From positions 1 through 43,412 of the forward strand of contig CAIVDS010000040.1 of the NCBI GenBank assembly GCA_903904685.1: a stretch of DNA of 43,412 nt, written 5' to 3'. The position numbers and the translations under genes were made by a program. Origin of the DNA: an uncultured Verrucomicrobiota bacterium. GTDB lineage: Bacteria > Verrucomicrobiota > Verrucomicrobiia > Opitutales > Opitutaceae. Below the pieces are notes generated by a model. That model ran no database searches. It was not told the DNA's origin and saw nothing but the letters and a program-made list of their open reading frames with translations. Positions 35,490-41,251 of this stretch are shown piece by piece; within the stretch, counting starts at the first letter, position 1; each line of letters opens with the position of its first letter.

Positions 35490-37100
35490 TCAGAGTCCGA
35501 GCGGTTGGAGATGGGAGAGCACTTCGATGACGAGAGGGTCGTCGCACAACGCTTCCCATGGCTGGTTGCTGGAGATGCGCACGAAGAGTTGGTCGCCGGC
35601 GGCGCGAAATCCGTAGCGAAGCGCCAGTTTAAGGAACGTGCGCGGTGACAAGGGCGCTATTTGCGGAATCGGCTGCCCGGCATAAAGGTGCCAATACCAG
35701 ACATGCTGGGGGTAGGCGTCGTTTTTAAATAGCAGGTATTCCGGTTTTGGCAGTGTCCGTCCACCGACAAGGAACGGCGAGGGCGCGGCCGTGTGGGCTT
35801 GCCACACCCAGCCGGAGCCGGGCCAGCATGTATCGGGCGTGTGGGAGGAGACGAGACTCACGGGAGCCTGCCCGGCGGACCAATAGGCGAGATAAAACGT
35901 GATCTGCATCGGCGGGCCGGACGGCGCCTTGCGAAGATAAGAGCGTTGCAGGAGATGATCCGTCTGCAGCAGCGATGAAAATTGGGAAAGGTCATCCGCC
36001 GTGCGCACCGTCCACTCAGGCGTTGTGACAGGGAGAAAGGATTCGAGGTTGGGCACCGGTGCATCCGCCCGCGAGGTATCGTGGGTGTTATACGCGAAGA
36101 ACCCGACCAGCACCACCGCCGCGACGAGGCCGGCGGGCACGCCCCAGCGGCGGGTGGGCGGCAAGGCAGACGCAGGTTGCCGCGTCGCGATTGCAGCGGC
36201 GGGCTTGGCGGGCGCGCGGTCTTCGAGCCAGAGGGCGAGTCCGCCCAGAATGGCCGCCGTCACGCCCAATACGGCGAAACCGGTGAGGTCGTGCCAGGTG
36301 CCGCCGATGTTGATGCCGGCATTGGCCAAAAGGGTGAGGACGAGCGAGCGCAGGATGTTCATCCCGATGGCGAGCGGCGCGGCAAGGGCCACGAGCAGCA
36401 CCCGGGCCCAAGGTTTGCGCACGAGCGTGGCGGAGAAAAATAGGCCGGCCACGATGCAGGAGATGAGGCTGCGCACCCCGCTGCATGCTTCTTCAACGCC
36501 CACGCTGGTGTGGGCCAGTTCGATGATGTTGCCCCGTGTGATGGCCGGGATGCCCAGCAGATGCAGCGCGTGGAGCACGACATCGGTCACGAGGAGTTGC
36601 AGCTTCAGGGTGATGTGCTGGTAGGTGTTCGGCGGGATCGGCGCGCTCAGCGGCCATAAACCGACCGCCACCAACGAGGACCAGTTGAGCGGCACCACCC
36701 GCACGCCGTCGCCGGCCAGCCAGAGCAACGTCGCGCAGAGCAAGGCCGCCAGGGCGGAAGCGAGGGTGAACCCCACCAACGCATGCGACCAGTCGAGGGA
36801 TGCGGCGAAAAGACCGCCGCAGGCGATCAGCACCAACCCGGAGACGAGGGTGGTGGTCCGCAGGATTTTGGTCGCGAGGGTTTCGGGTAAAAAACGGCAG
36901 GAGCCCTGACGGCGGCTTTCGTGCAACAGGATCAGGAAAATCGCCGGCACGAAAAGTCCGTGCGAGAGATCCGGGTTGTTCCGCCATTGCGGCCAGAGCA
37001 ACACGGAGAGCGCTCCGGCGAGCAACCCGCCGAGCGCGATCACGCACCAAACCATGGCGGGGATGGAGCGGTTCAACGGGACTGGCATGGAGGACGGCAT
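35490..37100 (-). CDS. exosortase fused to a C-terminal EpsI-like domain
   Basis: A 536-residue membrane protein. Residues about 15-300 hold eight or so hydrophobic helices with the exosortase catalytic residues: C206 in EEACSGVRSL, R251 in NILRSLVL and H270 in TWHDLTGF. These transpeptidases cut PEP-CTERM-tagged proteins at the membrane for surface anchoring or export. After a Pro/Ala-rich linker, residues about 350-536 are an EpsI/DUF3485-like domain with VSSHTPDTCWPGSGW, which in other systems is a separate gene. No PEP-CTERM substrate lies in the window. The next gene on this strand is the 30-residue peptide. Confidence 0.9.
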   Translation of the reverse strand: MPSSMPVPLNRSIPAMVWCVIALGGLLAGALSVLLWPQWRNNPDLSHGLFVPAIFLILLHESRRQGSCRFLPETLATKILRTTTLVSGLVLIACGGLFAASLDWSHALVGFTLASALAALLCATLLWLAGDGVRVVPLNWSSLVAVGLWPLSAPIPPNTYQHITLKLQLLVTDVVLHALHLLGIPAITRGNIIELAHTSVGVEEACSGVRSLISCIVAGLFFSATLVRKPWARVLLVALAAPLAIGMNILRSLVLTLLANAGINIGGTWHDLTGFAVLGVTAAILGGLALWLEDRAPAKPAAAIATRQPASALPPTRRWGVPAGLVAAVVLVGFFAYNTHDTSRADAPVPNLESFLPVTTPEWTVRTADDLSQFSSLLQTDHLLQRSYLRKAPSGPPMQITFYLAYWSAGQAPVSLVSSHTPDTCWPGSGWVWQAHTAAPSPFLVGGRTLPKPEYLLFKNDAYPQHVWYWHLYAGQPIPQIAPLSPRTFLKLALRYGFRAAGDQLFVRISSNQPWEALCDDPLVIEVLSHLQPLGL

Positions 37101-37179: not shown

Positions 37180-38034
37180 TCAGACTTTCACCAAAAACAG
37201 GTCGGGGTGCATGGCACCTTCGGCGACCTTGTTGACCGAGCCGGTCATGCGGATCGAAAACCCGGCGCCGATCTCGATGCCGATTTTGCCGCCGGGCATG
37301 TGGACGGTGACGTTGGCGTCCACGAGGCCGAGCTTGTGCGCGACGGCGGCCGAGGCGCTGGAACTGCTGCCCGAGGCGAGTGTGTAGCCGGCGCCGCGCT
37401 CCCAGATTTCGATCTGGATGTTGGCGCGATCGATGACCTTGAGGAACTGGACGTTGGTCTTGCGCGGAAAGTTGGCGTGGGTTTCCAGATGCGGACCGTA
37501 GCGGTGCGCCAATTCGGGCGAGATGACGTCGAGCGGGATCACGCAGTGCGGATTGCCGATGGTGGCCGAGCAATAGGTGAACGTGCGGTCGAGCACGGTG
37601 ATCGCCTCGTTGATGACCTCGCGTTCCGGGCCGACGTGCGGAATCTTGGTGCTGACGAAGCTCACGTTGCCCATGTCCACGGTGATGAGGTGGCCGTTGT
37701 CCTTGATGACGGACTGCACATGGCCGCCGGGCGTTTCGACGGTGAAGGTGGCGTTCTTGGCGAGCTTCCGGTCCCACAGGTAACGAGAAAAAATGCGCAG
37801 GCCGTTGCCGGATTTCTCCGCCTCGGAGCCGTCGGGATTGAAGATGCGCAGGCCGAAATCGCTCTTGGTGGAGGGGAGCGGGCCCCAGAGAATGCCGTCG
37901 GAGCCGACGCCGAAGTTGCGGTGGCAGATCACGCGGATCTGCCCGACCGTGGGCGCGGTTTTCCACTGCGGGAAATCGGCGGGATCAAGGACGATGTAGT
38001 CGTTGCCGAGGGCGTGATACTTGTAGAAACGCAT
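37180..38034 (-). CDS. DapF-fold epimerase homologue lacking both catalytic cysteines
   Basis: A 284-residue protein with the whole diaminopimelate epimerase framework: N-terminal FYKYHALGNDY, GVGSDGI, FNPDGSEAEKSGNG, the NPH segment (H163) and WERGAGYTLASGSS. In DapF the two-base mechanism uses Cys in AEMCGNG and Cys in ETLACGTG. Here the positions are S75 and S221, read as TCC and TCG, and the Glu of ETLACG is Tyr. Both cysteines are therefore serine and the second loop is rewritten. It may be a paralogue with a different reaction, an inactive homologue, or a lineage-specific variant that still works. It lies 12 bp after alaS on the same strand. Confidence 0.85.
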   Translation of the reverse strand: MRFYKYHALGNDYIVLDPADFPQWKTAPTVGQIRVICHRNFGVGSDGILWGPLPSTKSDFGLRIFNPDGSEAEKSGNGLRIFSRYLWDRKLAKNATFTVETPGGHVQSVIKDNGHLITVDMGNVSFVSTKIPHVGPEREVINEAITVLDRTFTYCSATIGNPHCVIPLDVISPELAHRYGPHLETHANFPRKTNVQFLKVIDRANIQIEIWERGAGYTLASGSSSSASAAVAHKLGLVDANVTVHMPGGKIGIEIGAGFSIRMTGSVNKVAEGAMHPDLFLVKV

Positions 38035-38046
38035 GAAGAAGGAGAA

Positions 38047-40839
38047 TCAGGCGTTCAGCACGGTGGCGAGTTTGGAGGCGTCTTTGCCGCCGCCCATGGC
38101 GAAGTCGGGTTTGCCGCCGCCTTTGCCGCCGAGCTGGGCGGTGAGGGCGCTGATGATCTTGCCGGCCTGATAACCCGCCTTGATGGCGGCGGGCGAGGCG
38201 AACGCGACGAGTGAAACCTTTTCGCTGCCGAAGGCCGCGCCAAGGACGACCACGCCTTCGCCGAGTTTGGCGAGGACTTGGGAACCGATTTCGCGGAGTG
38301 ACTCGGGTGTCTCGACGGTGACGACTGCGGAGACATGCGGCAGGCCGTCCTTGGTCGTCGCCTTGGCGGCGAGATCGGTGGCGATGGCGGCGATGGCGCG
38401 TTGCTCGAAGGACTTGAGCTTTTTGTCGGCCTCGGCCTTGTGGGCGAGGAGCGAGTCGAGCTTGAGATCGAGCTGGTTCACGGGAACTCCGATCTTGGCG
38501 GCGGTGACGGCGAGCTGGTTCTCAATCGCCGAAACATGGTCGTAGGCGGCCTGGCCGGCGACGGCTTCGAGGCGGCGGGTGCCGGCGGCGACGGCGCCTT
38601 CGGAAATGATTTTAACAAGGCCGATTTCGCCGGTGGTGGAGACGTGGGTGCCGCCGCAGAGTTCGCGGCTGTAGCCACCGGTGTCCACGACGCGGACGGT
38701 CTTGCCGTATTTCTCGCCGAAGAAGGCGAGGGTGCCTTCAGGCTTCTTGTCGAACTCGGTTTCGTAGGAGGCGACGGCGGCGTTTTCGAGGACGCGCTCG
38801 TTGACGAGGCCCTCGATCTCGCGGAGCTGGGCGGGCGTGACGGCCTCGAAGTGGGCGAAGTCGAAACGGAGGCGGTCGGGGGCGTTGAGCGAGCCGGCCT
38901 GGCGGACGTGCGTGCCGAGGACTTTGCGCAAAGCCCAGTGTAGGAGGTGGGTCGCGGTGTGGTGGCGGTTGATCGCGCGGCGACGGGTCGCGTCCACGCG
39001 GAGCGTGGACGCGAGTTTAAGATCAAAGTTTAAGTTTAAGGCGGAGACCTTGTGAAGGTAGCGGCCGGACTTGTCCTTCACGGTGTCGGTGATGTGGACG
39101 AGGTGGCCGGAGACGAGGGCCTCGCCGGTGTCACCGAGCTGGCCGCCCATTTCGGCGTAGAAGGGGGTTTCGGCGAAGACGAGGTAGGTGTCCTTCTCGG
39201 TTTTGACGATGTCGACGAGCGTGGTCTCGGCGGTGAGCTTTTCGTAGCCGAGGAAGGTCGTGGGCGTGACCTCGGTGGTGTCGGAGCCTTCGGTGGCGGC
39301 GACGACGATGGTCTTCTTGGTGGAGGCTTGGCCGCGTTTGCGCTGCTTGTCCATGAGGCGCTCGAACTCGGCGGTATCGACAGTGAGGCCGCGCTCGGTG
39401 GCGAGGAGCTGAGTCATGTCGAGGGGAAAGCCGTAGGTGTCGTAGAGTTTGAAGGCGAACTCGCCGCTAATTATTCTACTTTTTTCAGCTCCATCCCGCC
39501 GCTGGATTTCTACGGCATCAACGTTATCGGAATCGACCAAAATGAGCTTCCGACCGGGCACCGTATCTAGGTATTTGGACCCGTTAACAGCGGCGTTAAA
39601 AAGATCTAACCCCTTGTCGATGGTCCGACCGAAGCTCTCCTCCTCGCTGCGGATCACGCGGCGGATGATGTCTTGGCGCTCGACGAGTTCGGGGAAGACC
39701 GGGCCGAGGCTTTCGACCACGGGGGAGACGAGTTGTTCGAAGAAGCCGGTTTTGAGCCCGAGCTTGGTGCCGTAAAGAATGCCACGGCGGAGGATGCGGC
39801 GGATGACGTAGTTGCGGCCTTCGTTGCCGGGCATGATGCCGTCGGCGATGCTGCACGAGATCGTGCGGGCGTGGTCGGCGAGGACGCGGAAGGCTATGTC
39901 GGTGTTTTCCTGTTCGCTGAGGCCTTCGCGTTTGGTCGGAACGGTGCCGGTGTAGGTCTTGCCGGAGAGGGCGGTGACTTTGGCGAACAACGGGGCGAAG
40001 ACGTCGGCGTTGTAGTTGGAAGGCTCGGGGGAGAAGTCCGTAAACCCCTTCGTCGTGGCGTGGATGCCGGCGACGCGTTCGAAGCCCATGCCGGTATCGA
40101 CGTGTTTGGCGGCGAGAGGGGAGAAGGTGCCGTCGGCGTTGGCGTTGAACTGGATGAAAACGTGGTTCCAGATTTCAATGCAGCGCGGGCTGGAGGAGTT
40201 CACGCCCTTGCGGCCTTCGACTTCGTCGTCGGAGGGGAGCAGGTTGAAATGGATTTCGGAGCAGGGACCGCAGGGGCCGGTGTCGCCCATCTGCCAGAAG
40301 TTGTCCTTGCGGTTGCCGTGGACGATGTGGAGGGAGGGATCGAGTCCGGCGGCCTTGAAGAGCTCCGTCCAGATGGCGGCGGCTTCGTGGTCGAATTCGG
40401 AGGGATCGCCGGGTTTCGGCGCGTAGACGGTGGCGTAGAGACGCTTGGCGGGGATGCCCCAGACTTTCGTCAGCAAATGCCAGCCCCAGGCGAGCGACTC
40501 TTTCTTGAAGTAGTCGCCGAAGGACCAGTTGCCGAGCATCTCGAAGAGCGTGTGGTGGTAGGTGTCGTAGCCGACGTCCTCGAGGTCGTTGTGTTTGCCG
40601 CCGGCGCGGATGCACTTCTGGGTGTCGGCGGCGCGGGTGTCCTTGGCGGGGCGGGCTCCGGCCCATTTGGAGACGTCGGCCTGTTTGTCACCGAGGAAAA
40701 TGGGCACGAACTGGTTCATGCCGGCGTTGGTGAAGAGCAGTCCGGGCGAGTCCGGCAGCAACGACGACGACGGGACGATCGTGTGGCCTTGGGAGGCGAA
40801 GAAATCGAGGAAGGACTGGCGGATCTCGGCGGAAGTCAT
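38047..40839 (-). CDS. alaS: alanyl-tRNA synthetase
   Basis: AlaRS charges tRNA-Ala and edits mischarged Ser/Gly. The 930-residue protein starts at ATG 40839 (MTSAEIRQSFLDFFASQGH), the family start; the longer frame crosses the inverted repeat and the four-helix gene. The catalytic core has NAGMNQFVP and DTGPCGPCSEIHF. The editing domain metal motifs are HHTATHLLH and ELCGGTHVSTTG, and the C-Ala region ends KPDFAMGGGKD. Two in-frame stretches look inserted: about 25 extra residues encoded by an AT-rich patch (39465-39610), and a short peptide encoded by a palindrome and a TTTAA-rich tract (38989-39050). The leader before the ATG is pyrimidine-rich with no Shine-Dalgarno, because an inverted repeat occupies it. 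Confidence 0.96.
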   Translation of the reverse strand: MTSAEIRQSFLDFFASQGHTIVPSSSLLPDSPGLLFTNAGMNQFVPIFLGDKQADVSKWAGARPAKDTRAADTQKCIRAGGKHNDLEDVGYDTYHHTLFEMLGNWSFGDYFKKESLAWGWHLLTKVWGIPAKRLYATVYAPKPGDPSEFDHEAAAIWTELFKAAGLDPSLHIVHGNRKDNFWQMGDTGPCGPCSEIHFNLLPSDDEVEGRKGVNSSSPRCIEIWNHVFIQFNANADGTFSPLAAKHVDTGMGFERVAGIHATTKGFTDFSPEPSNYNADVFAPLFAKVTALSGKTYTGTVPTKREGLSEQENTDIAFRVLADHARTISCSIADGIMPGNEGRNYVIRRILRRGILYGTKLGLKTGFFEQLVSPVVESLGPVFPELVERQDIIRRVIRSEEESFGRTIDKGLDLFNAAVNGSKYLDTVPGRKLILVDSDNVDAVEIQRRDGAEKSRIISGEFAFKLYDTYGFPLDMTQLLATERGLTVDTAEFERLMDKQRKRGQASTKKTIVVAATEGSDTTEVTPTTFLGYEKLTAETTLVDIVKTEKDTYLVFAETPFYAEMGGQLGDTGEALVSGHLVHITDTVKDKSGRYLHKVSALNLNFDLKLASTLRVDATRRRAINRHHTATHLLHWALRKVLGTHVRQAGSLNAPDRLRFDFAHFEAVTPAQLREIEGLVNERVLENAAVASYETEFDKKPEGTLAFFGEKYGKTVRVVDTGGYSRELCGGTHVSTTGEIGLVKIISEGAVAAGTRRLEAVAGQAAYDHVSAIENQLAVTAAKIGVPVNQLDLKLDSLLAHKAEADKKLKSFEQRAIAAIATDLAAKATTKDGLPHVSAVVTVETPESLREIGSQVLAKLGEGVVVLGAAFGSEKVSLVAFASPAAIKAGYQAGKIISALTAQLGGKGGGKPDFAMGGGKDASKLATVLNA
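38989..39013. repeat. 11-bp inverted repeat inside alaS
   Basis: CGCGTCCACGC and GCGTGGACGCG face each other across three bases within the alaS reading frame. It is followed by an AT-rich tract containing two copies of AAGTTTAA-like sequence (39016-39040). The reading frame stays open and the encoded peptide (ASTLRVDA) falls just before the editing-domain motif. It looks like a palindromic repetitive element accommodated in-frame. Confidence 0.5.
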
Positions 40840-40853
40840 CGGAGAATGGTGAA

Positions 40854-40874
40854 GGGTGAAGAGTGAATGGTGAA
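40854..40874 (+). repeat. left inverted repeat of the four-helix-bundle cassette
   Basis: The plus strand reads GGGTGAAGAGTGAATGGTGAA, built of heptamers of the form GGTGAAG/AGTGAAT. Its reverse complement reappears at 41240-41260 with 20 of 21 matches. It lies 14 bp upstream of the alaS start codon. Confidence 0.7.
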
Positions 40875-40912
40875 AAGTCAGGAGCGAGCGCGGCTGTTTT
40901 TCACGATAGTGG

Positions 40913-41251
40913 TTAGAGAATGGCGGTAAGTTGATAAGACTCGTCAATGAGTGCGGAAATGCGAGTGGCGGGAACGATGTCGGCAGCGTTGAGAAGGCGG
41001 AGCCAGTAGTGGGTTTCGCGCGCCTCTTTGCAGGCAATGGAGGTTTTGTGGATAAAATCGGCGCGACTTTGGCTGGCTTGGGCTTCTTCAAGGTTTGCAC
41101 CAACCGAGGTCGCTGATCGGAGCAGTTGGCGCGCGAGGGTGGCATTGACTCCGGGCTGGGAATCGAGGGATTGGCAGAGACGGATCACGCGTAACGCGAA
41201 CTGGAAGGTTCGTTCACGGATTTCCGAGGGTTCTGTCAATTCACCCTTCAC
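40913..41251 (-). CDS. four-helix-bundle protein (23S rRNA intervening-sequence family)
   Basis: A 112-residue helical protein with the complete signature of this family: IRERTFQFALRVIRLCQSL, RQLLRSATSVGANLEEAQ, SRADFIHKTSIACKEARET and HYWLRLL. Homologues were first noticed inside intervening sequences of 23S rRNA genes, and a relative (Avd) is an accessory of diversity-generating retroelements; a general biochemical function is not established. Here it lies between leuB and alaS. Its GTG start is inside the right inverted repeat, four bases from the leuB stop. No reverse transcriptase or rRNA is nearby. The flanking repeats suggest it arrived as a cassette. Confidence 0.9.
   Translation of the reverse strand: MKGELTEPSEIRERTFQFALRVIRLCQSLDSQPGVNATLARQLLRSATSVGANLEEAQASQSRADFIHKTSIACKEARETHYWLRLLNAADIVPATRISALIDESYQLTAIL

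Follow-up and report, generated by a model that had tools for sequence, protein, structure and literature searches.

The DapF homolog encoded at positions 37180..38034 on the minus strand of the window, the whole 43,412-nucleotide stretch analyzed here from an uncultured Opitutaceae bacterium, is probably a functional diaminopimelate (DAP) epimerase that forms meso-DAP from LL-DAP. It would keep the two domains and two bases of the DapF architecture, with Ser75 and Ser221 acting as acid and base in the places of the two catalytic cysteines. We infer its activity, its substrate and the proton-carrying role of the serines; the protein very probably acts on DAP, and a serine likely does the chemistry. 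DapF is the textbook case of cofactor-free alpha-proton removal by a thiolate/thiol pair, and we found no description of a natural Ser/Ser DapF in the open-access literature. The first-pass annotation of this DNA had offered another reaction, ligand binding or a modified mechanism as possible roles; among these we favor a modified mechanism acting on the same substrate.

The gene encodes 284 residues from an ATG start, and its product scores 230.2 bits against the TIGR00652 DapF equivalog model (cut-off 114.65) but only 62.7 bits, against a cut-off of 350, for the bifunctional DapF/glutamate racemase model NF038284. Its best sequence matches among solved proteins are DapFs. A structure predicted from a 20-row alignment (mean pLDDT 92.4; a single-sequence model with pLDDT 31.9 was discarded) has the two-domain DapF fold, with the catalytic positions at the N-ends of the two central helices, and compares at Z 33.7-36.5 with solved DapFs, which among the top 13 rows come from six bacteria or plants. 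The top Z, 36.8, belongs to an O-ureidoserine racemase, tied with DapF at 36.5; the sequence match to this racemase is weaker (106.4 bits vs 178.6 for DapF). The proline racemase superfamily shares the fold at 13-16% identity in the structure comparison, and none of its members occurs among the 17 solved-protein sequence matches, nor any such model in a family-model scan run without Pfam. In ancestry as in fold, the protein is a DapF. It resembles the solved enzymes of Haemophilus influenzae (1gqz), Anabaena (9mro) and Pseudomonas aeruginosa (8qzy) in length, two-domain fold, helix N-cap positions and substrate-binding residues at 34-36% identity, and differs from them in having serine at both catalytic cysteine positions, together with Lys74, Ile81, Tyr217 and Ser224.

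Residues 75 and 221 face the catalytic cysteine columns in four alignments to solved proteins, and are encoded by TCC (37810..37812) and TCG (37372..37374), both on the minus strand. The only aligned chain with serine at the first site is 2q9h, titled a C73S mutant. This H. influenzae variant and its counterpart C217S (2q9j), with Z 34.2 and 33.7, each carry serine at one of the same two places, but are single mutants made in the laboratory, whereas the two serines of the window protein are natural and near-invariant in their clade. In the predicted structure Ser75 directly precedes helix 76-88 and Ser221 directly precedes helix 222-234, and the catalytic cysteines of solved relatives are described in the same helix-start places (PMC11602996, PMC12039745). 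Around the first site the protein reads N-P-D-G-S-EAEK-S-G-N-G-L-R, so that serine replaces the cysteine of the DapF active-site signature (PROSITE PDOC01029, quoted in PMC8225329) while all other positions fit; in the C-terminal domain Ser221 stands instead of the second cysteine. Family model, predicted fold, alignments and codons thus agree with the initial description of a DapF homolog in which both cysteines have become serine.

Across 264 aligned rows that we read, 183 are Ser/Ser, 81 are Cys/Cys and none is mixed, in a set whose rows overlap (some genes were fetched twice) and were partly picked by similarity, which makes these counts not independent. The residues N66, D68, N77, R80, H163, N194, E212, R213 and G222 are identical in 183/183 Ser rows and 81/81 Cys rows, and N11 (with two gaps) and N161 are each found in 181 of the 183 Ser rows, so the set of Asn, Glu and Arg residues that binds substrate is retained. 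Four other positions change along with the serines. Position 74 (codon 37813..37815, minus strand) is Lys in 180/183 Ser rows and Met in 75/81 Cys rows; position 81 is Ile in 181/183 and Cys in 79/81; position 217 (codon 37384..37386, minus strand) is Tyr in 179/183 and Glu in 68/81; and position 224 is Ser in 181/183 and Gly in 81/81. At the level of sequence, then, the site has been rebuilt. The earlier statement that all other framework residues are kept accordingly holds for the nine residues invariant in both forms but not for K74, I81 and S224. The change of the second-loop Glu that it also pointed out is real, yet was given too much weight: because 13 of the 81 Cys rows also do without Glu at 217, its absence alone is no catalytic marker.

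The Ser/Ser change is clade-wide and old, and comprises Lys74, Ile81, Tyr217 and Ser224 as well, which goes beyond what had been noted from the window. In one contig scan 80/80 relatives were Ser/Ser, these being the best 80 of 525 by similarity, a selection that could not easily have shown the Cys/Cys form. Further DapF genes came from family-model searches of phylum and order and from a phylum-wide search with a Ser/Ser profile. Over 387 phylum genomes this profile gave two separate score groups, at 331 bits or more and at 238 bits or less. Outside the order the upper group holds 27 genomes in nine families, of which 19 were read and all 19 were Ser/Ser; in one of these genes (G374) the match is reported with a stop codon, and Val follows the first serine. 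Two genes of the lower group fetched for comparison were both Cys/Cys. A sequencing or assembly artefact, which was a vanishingly improbable explanation for the serines, is ruled out: they are shared by 80/80 relatives (the best 80 of 525) and 183/264 rows from many independent assemblies, and low dN/dS (0.05-0.22) in eight Ser/Ser pairs also speaks against an error. Nothing was found in favor of an artefact.

The first-pass annotation had called for a tree of the variant, and two quick trees (108 and 77 rows), both unrooted and with long branches flagged, separate the Ser/Ser rows from the others by a single branch (SH-aLRT 99). A single origin of the Ser/Ser form is not proven, since these are quick trees with flagged long branches. 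The Cys/Cys genes of the order cluster with those found elsewhere in the class, and two plasmid genes, one from Streptomyces sp. NBC_01216 and one from Agrobacterium vitis, fall on the Ser/Ser side. Searches matched 118 plasmid and 26 phage records, and five plasmid loci were read, two of them Ser/Ser and three Cys/Cys; in viral contigs, 63 stretches fitting the pattern included no relative. The Streptomyces and A. vitis plasmid genes (L183 and L185) are distant Ser/Ser DapF-like genes that adjoin genes for a 2OG-Fe dioxygenase and a molybdopterin oxidoreductase, surroundings that look like biosynthetic clusters with an amino-acid racemase of unassigned substrate.

The codons also bear on how the serines are maintained. 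Ser75 is encoded by TCN in 93 and by AGY in 90 of the 183 Ser rows, and Ser221 by TCN in 175 and AGY in 8. When the AGY label is placed on the 77-row tree it needs 5 changes for Ser75 and 7 for Ser221, of which at least 3 and at least 4, respectively, are forced by well supported branches. A TCN codon becomes AGY only in two steps, which can lead via Cys or via Thr, and neither mixed state on these paths was seen among the rows read. With dN/dS of 0.05-0.22 in eight close Ser/Ser pairs, the pattern of substitutions indicates that the Ser/Ser site is under selection. Decay of the gene is ruled out by the low dN/dS and the conservation.

The genome of this bacterium (completeness 99.98%) encodes a plant-type DapL (560.9 bits), a LysA over its cut-off (448 bits) and a MurE (538.8 bits) with the DNPR motif. 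No other PF01678 gene was found in it, which answers the suggestion to search for a second dapF, and it has no match to Ddh, which speaks against a Ddh bypass here. Meso-DAP is the substrate of LysA, and Ddh yields meso-DAP directly. LL-DAP is therefore made and meso-DAP is apparently needed twice, and besides the Ser/Ser protein no candidate for the intervening step was found. DNPR occurs in 29/30 of the best MurE loci of the order, and the DNPR-containing MurE of Verrucomicrobium is reported to be stereospecific for meso-DAP (PMC3681970). Across the order 11/87 LysA matches pass the model cut-off, this genome's included, and plant-type DapL is over its cut-off in 28/87 genomes. DAP has been detected in Lacunisphaera and Opitutus terrae, for which a genome survey in the same report lists DapL and DapF (PMC5303756); two loci labelled Lacunisphaera (L052 and L076) are Ser/Ser. 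The amounts described for Opitutaceae by GC/MS are about ten times lower than in Escherichia coli (3-7 nmol vs 63, the latter from another study), and in that account TLC showed no DL-DAP and ornithine was present (PMC5303756). A low DAP content would suit a slow enzyme, and other causes are possible.

Genomes in which DapF has been replaced point to the same step. Among 105 genomes of the order, 93 have a DapF match and 12 have none, and Ddh is over its cut-off in 6/12 of the latter vs 4/80 tested of the former (Fisher p = 0.0002, kinship ignored). The remaining six genomes with neither DapF nor Ddh are G337 and five of at most 1.0 Mb. In family f3, the four genomes of genus g24 (G148, G175, G338 and G351) have no DapF and carry Ddh and MurI in 4/4, and four others (G102, G328, G346 and G358) have a Ser/Ser DapF and neither Ddh nor MurI over cut-off, with a MurI-like match of 93.6 bits in G328. 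The murI and ddh genes adjoin in G175 (C18:63727-65633) and G351 (C10:28302-30208), as if the pair had been gained together in replacement of DapF. Where dapF could be read (84/93 genomes of the order), 75 genomes have the Ser/Ser form only, eight the Cys/Cys form only (families f72 and f80) and one, G326, has both; two genomes of the Opitutaceae genus g15 are Cys/Cys. The Ser form, the Cys form and Ddh thus replace one another, as expected if all serve the same step. The idea that meso-DAP synthesis here would rely on a serine enzyme is accordingly favored by the presence of DapL, LysA and a DNPR MurE, the failure to find Ddh, and the occurrence of Ddh in half of the DapF-less relatives. Some genomes do not fit this picture: both a Ser/Ser DapF and Ddh are present in G018, G080, G345 and G364, and neither DapF nor Ddh was found in G282 or in the five genomes of at most 1.0 Mb.

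The protein may have a second product in some relatives. MurI had no match in 46/53 genomes of the order, and scores 163.3 bits in this genome (C55:971-1762). The DapF of Chlamydia trachomatis, from the same superphylum, is reported to racemize glutamate besides epimerizing DAP and has been suggested as a MurI substitute, a role proposed across the superphylum; it differs from the window protein in that both of its cysteines, C72 and C207, are present and required (PMC5885031). Because MurI accompanies Ddh in all four f3 genomes that lack DapF, the Ser/Ser DapF of relatives without MurI may make D-glutamate. Against such a double role, G298 and G357 lack DapF and have Ddh, and no MurI was seen in them. 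A D-amino-acid transaminase, over its cut-off in 2/53 genomes of the order with a weaker match in 46/53, is a possible source of D-glutamate. The wider reading, to which we give somewhat less than an even chance, is that most of the order, and several further families of the phylum, depend for meso-DAP, and hence for lysine and peptidoglycan, on a natural Ser/Ser two-base alpha-carbon epimerase as their only route, and that this enzyme may also make D-glutamate in the many relatives without MurI.

Cysteine DapFs work with a thiolate that abstracts the alpha proton and a thiol that gives one back; their cleft is closed and dry, and helix ends and backbone amides ease the charge in it (PMC12039745). 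In the Ser/Ser form LL-DAP from DapL would likewise sit in such a cleft, bound by the conserved DapF residues. One serine, heading its own helix and perhaps aided by the adjacent Lys74, would take the alpha proton, and the other serine would supply a proton on the opposite face. Lys74 may act as a base itself or lower the pKa of a serine. Mutants speak against this chemistry: single Cys-to-Ser mutants of PddB are reported with <0.1% activity, the authors citing the same for Mycobacterium tuberculosis DapF, and a hydroxyl is described as several pK units harder to ionize than a thiol (PMC8225329), while Cys-to-Ser activity of HisR was “greatly reduced” (PMC11602996). We argue that a mutant in a site tuned for cysteine says little about a site rebuilt around serine. 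Precedent exists in the proline racemase superfamily, a sister group with the same fold, where 4HypE B9JQV3 (Ser93/Cys236; 4lb0) epimerizes hydroxyproline and t3HypD B9K4G4 (Ser90/Thr256; 4k7g) dehydrates, each with a natural acid/base serine (PMC4113996); these enzymes differ in having proline-type substrates and 14-15% identity, and neither pair is Ser/Ser. A Cys/Thr aspartate/glutamate racemase has also been reviewed (PMC8142540).

It is rather unlikely that the protein is a DAP epimerase in which the serines only bind carboxylate or position the base and at least one proton is moved by Lys74 or by some other group, for example water or Tyr217. Lys74 adjoins Ser75 and replaces the Met of nearly all Cys rows, Tyr217 and Ser224 change in concert, and in Anabaena DapF the loop with residues 72-74 is described as curving round the substrate (PMC12039745). 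Yet Lys74 is not needed for Ser/Ser in general, as L183 has Met and L185 Arg at position 74 (neither with Tyr217) and L238 has Ile74, and the serines occupy the exact helix N-cap places in the predicted structure. Unlikely too is a protein that has lost DAP epimerization and become another racemase, an elimination enzyme or a binding or regulatory protein, with meso-DAP coming from an enzyme that we did not recognize. The activity loss of Cys-to-Ser mutants of relatives (PMC8225329, PMC11602996) would fit this, as would the DapF-like proteins with other substrates (histidine, O-ureidoserine and diaminobutyrate), the binding of RppH by E. coli DapF (entry title 6d13) and the company of the dioxygenase and oxidoreductase genes on the two plasmids. 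So would several genomes that do not conform: a single contig of G440 carries DapF genes of the Cys/Cys and of the Ser/Ser form (C3:40041-40832 and 182778-183611; L292 and L291, respectively), and G311 and G292 keep a Ser/Ser DapF although LysA has no match in them and MurE none over cut-off. Coexistence of the two forms in G440 and, on two contigs, in G326 could mean that they have different jobs. What opposes loss of the activity is that the Ser/Ser gene is the sole DapF-type gene found in 75/84 genomes of the order read, that loss of DapF goes with Ddh in 6/12 genomes, that the residues binding both ends of DAP are kept, and that the genome's DNPR MurE and its LysA need meso-DAP. 

A further explanation, which we consider very improbable, is that these bacteria have little need of meso-DAP, their wall using LL-DAP or ornithine, and that the epimerase has decayed to a weak enzyme. 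The low DAP, the ornithine and the lack of DL-DAP by TLC reported for Opitutaceae (PMC5303756) would agree with this, but LysA is present here, 29/30 MurE loci read have DNPR, and low dN/dS with a near-invariant serine site is unlike a decaying enzyme. Also at odds with a working DAP epimerase are five more genomes (G295, G297, G302, G314 and G343) that have a Ser/Ser DapF and MurE but no LysA match. G337, a single contig of 2.3 Mb, has no match to MurE, DapF, LysA or DapL, and belongs to genus g162, as does G311; these two are possibly wall-less or very unusual bacteria.

If the Ser/Ser protein is indeed a serine-based DAP epimerase, a thiol is not required for this chemistry, and removal of a weakly acidic proton becomes comparable across two natural solutions, for which G440 offers a natural pair of Ser/Ser and Cys/Cys enzymes. 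Cysteine-directed inhibitors of DapF such as aziridino-DAP have been described (PMC12039745), and bacteria with the serine form would be predicted to withstand both thiol oxidation and DapF inhibitors aimed at a thiol. If the protein is not an epimerase, a large bacterial group makes meso-DAP by an unrecognized route, which would be of equal interest.

Among 20 scanned dapF neighborhood genes 10 had no family at threshold and the other 10 received names unrelated to DAP or lysine, in calls from a crude gene caller that recovered dapF itself in 58/100 loci. In the window, an exosortase-like protein of 536 residues is encoded at 35490-37100 on the minus strand (TIGR04178, 53.5 bits vs a cut-off of 23, with the named subtypes below their own cut-offs). 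Upstream of dapF, across a 12-base gap and on the same strand, lies alaS (38047..41145, minus strand); the two genes are possibly co-transcribed, which would imply no functional tie to DAP. The alaS reading frame as listed begins about 100 residues ahead of the match to the AlaS model, which runs from residue 107, and the true start is probably further inside it.
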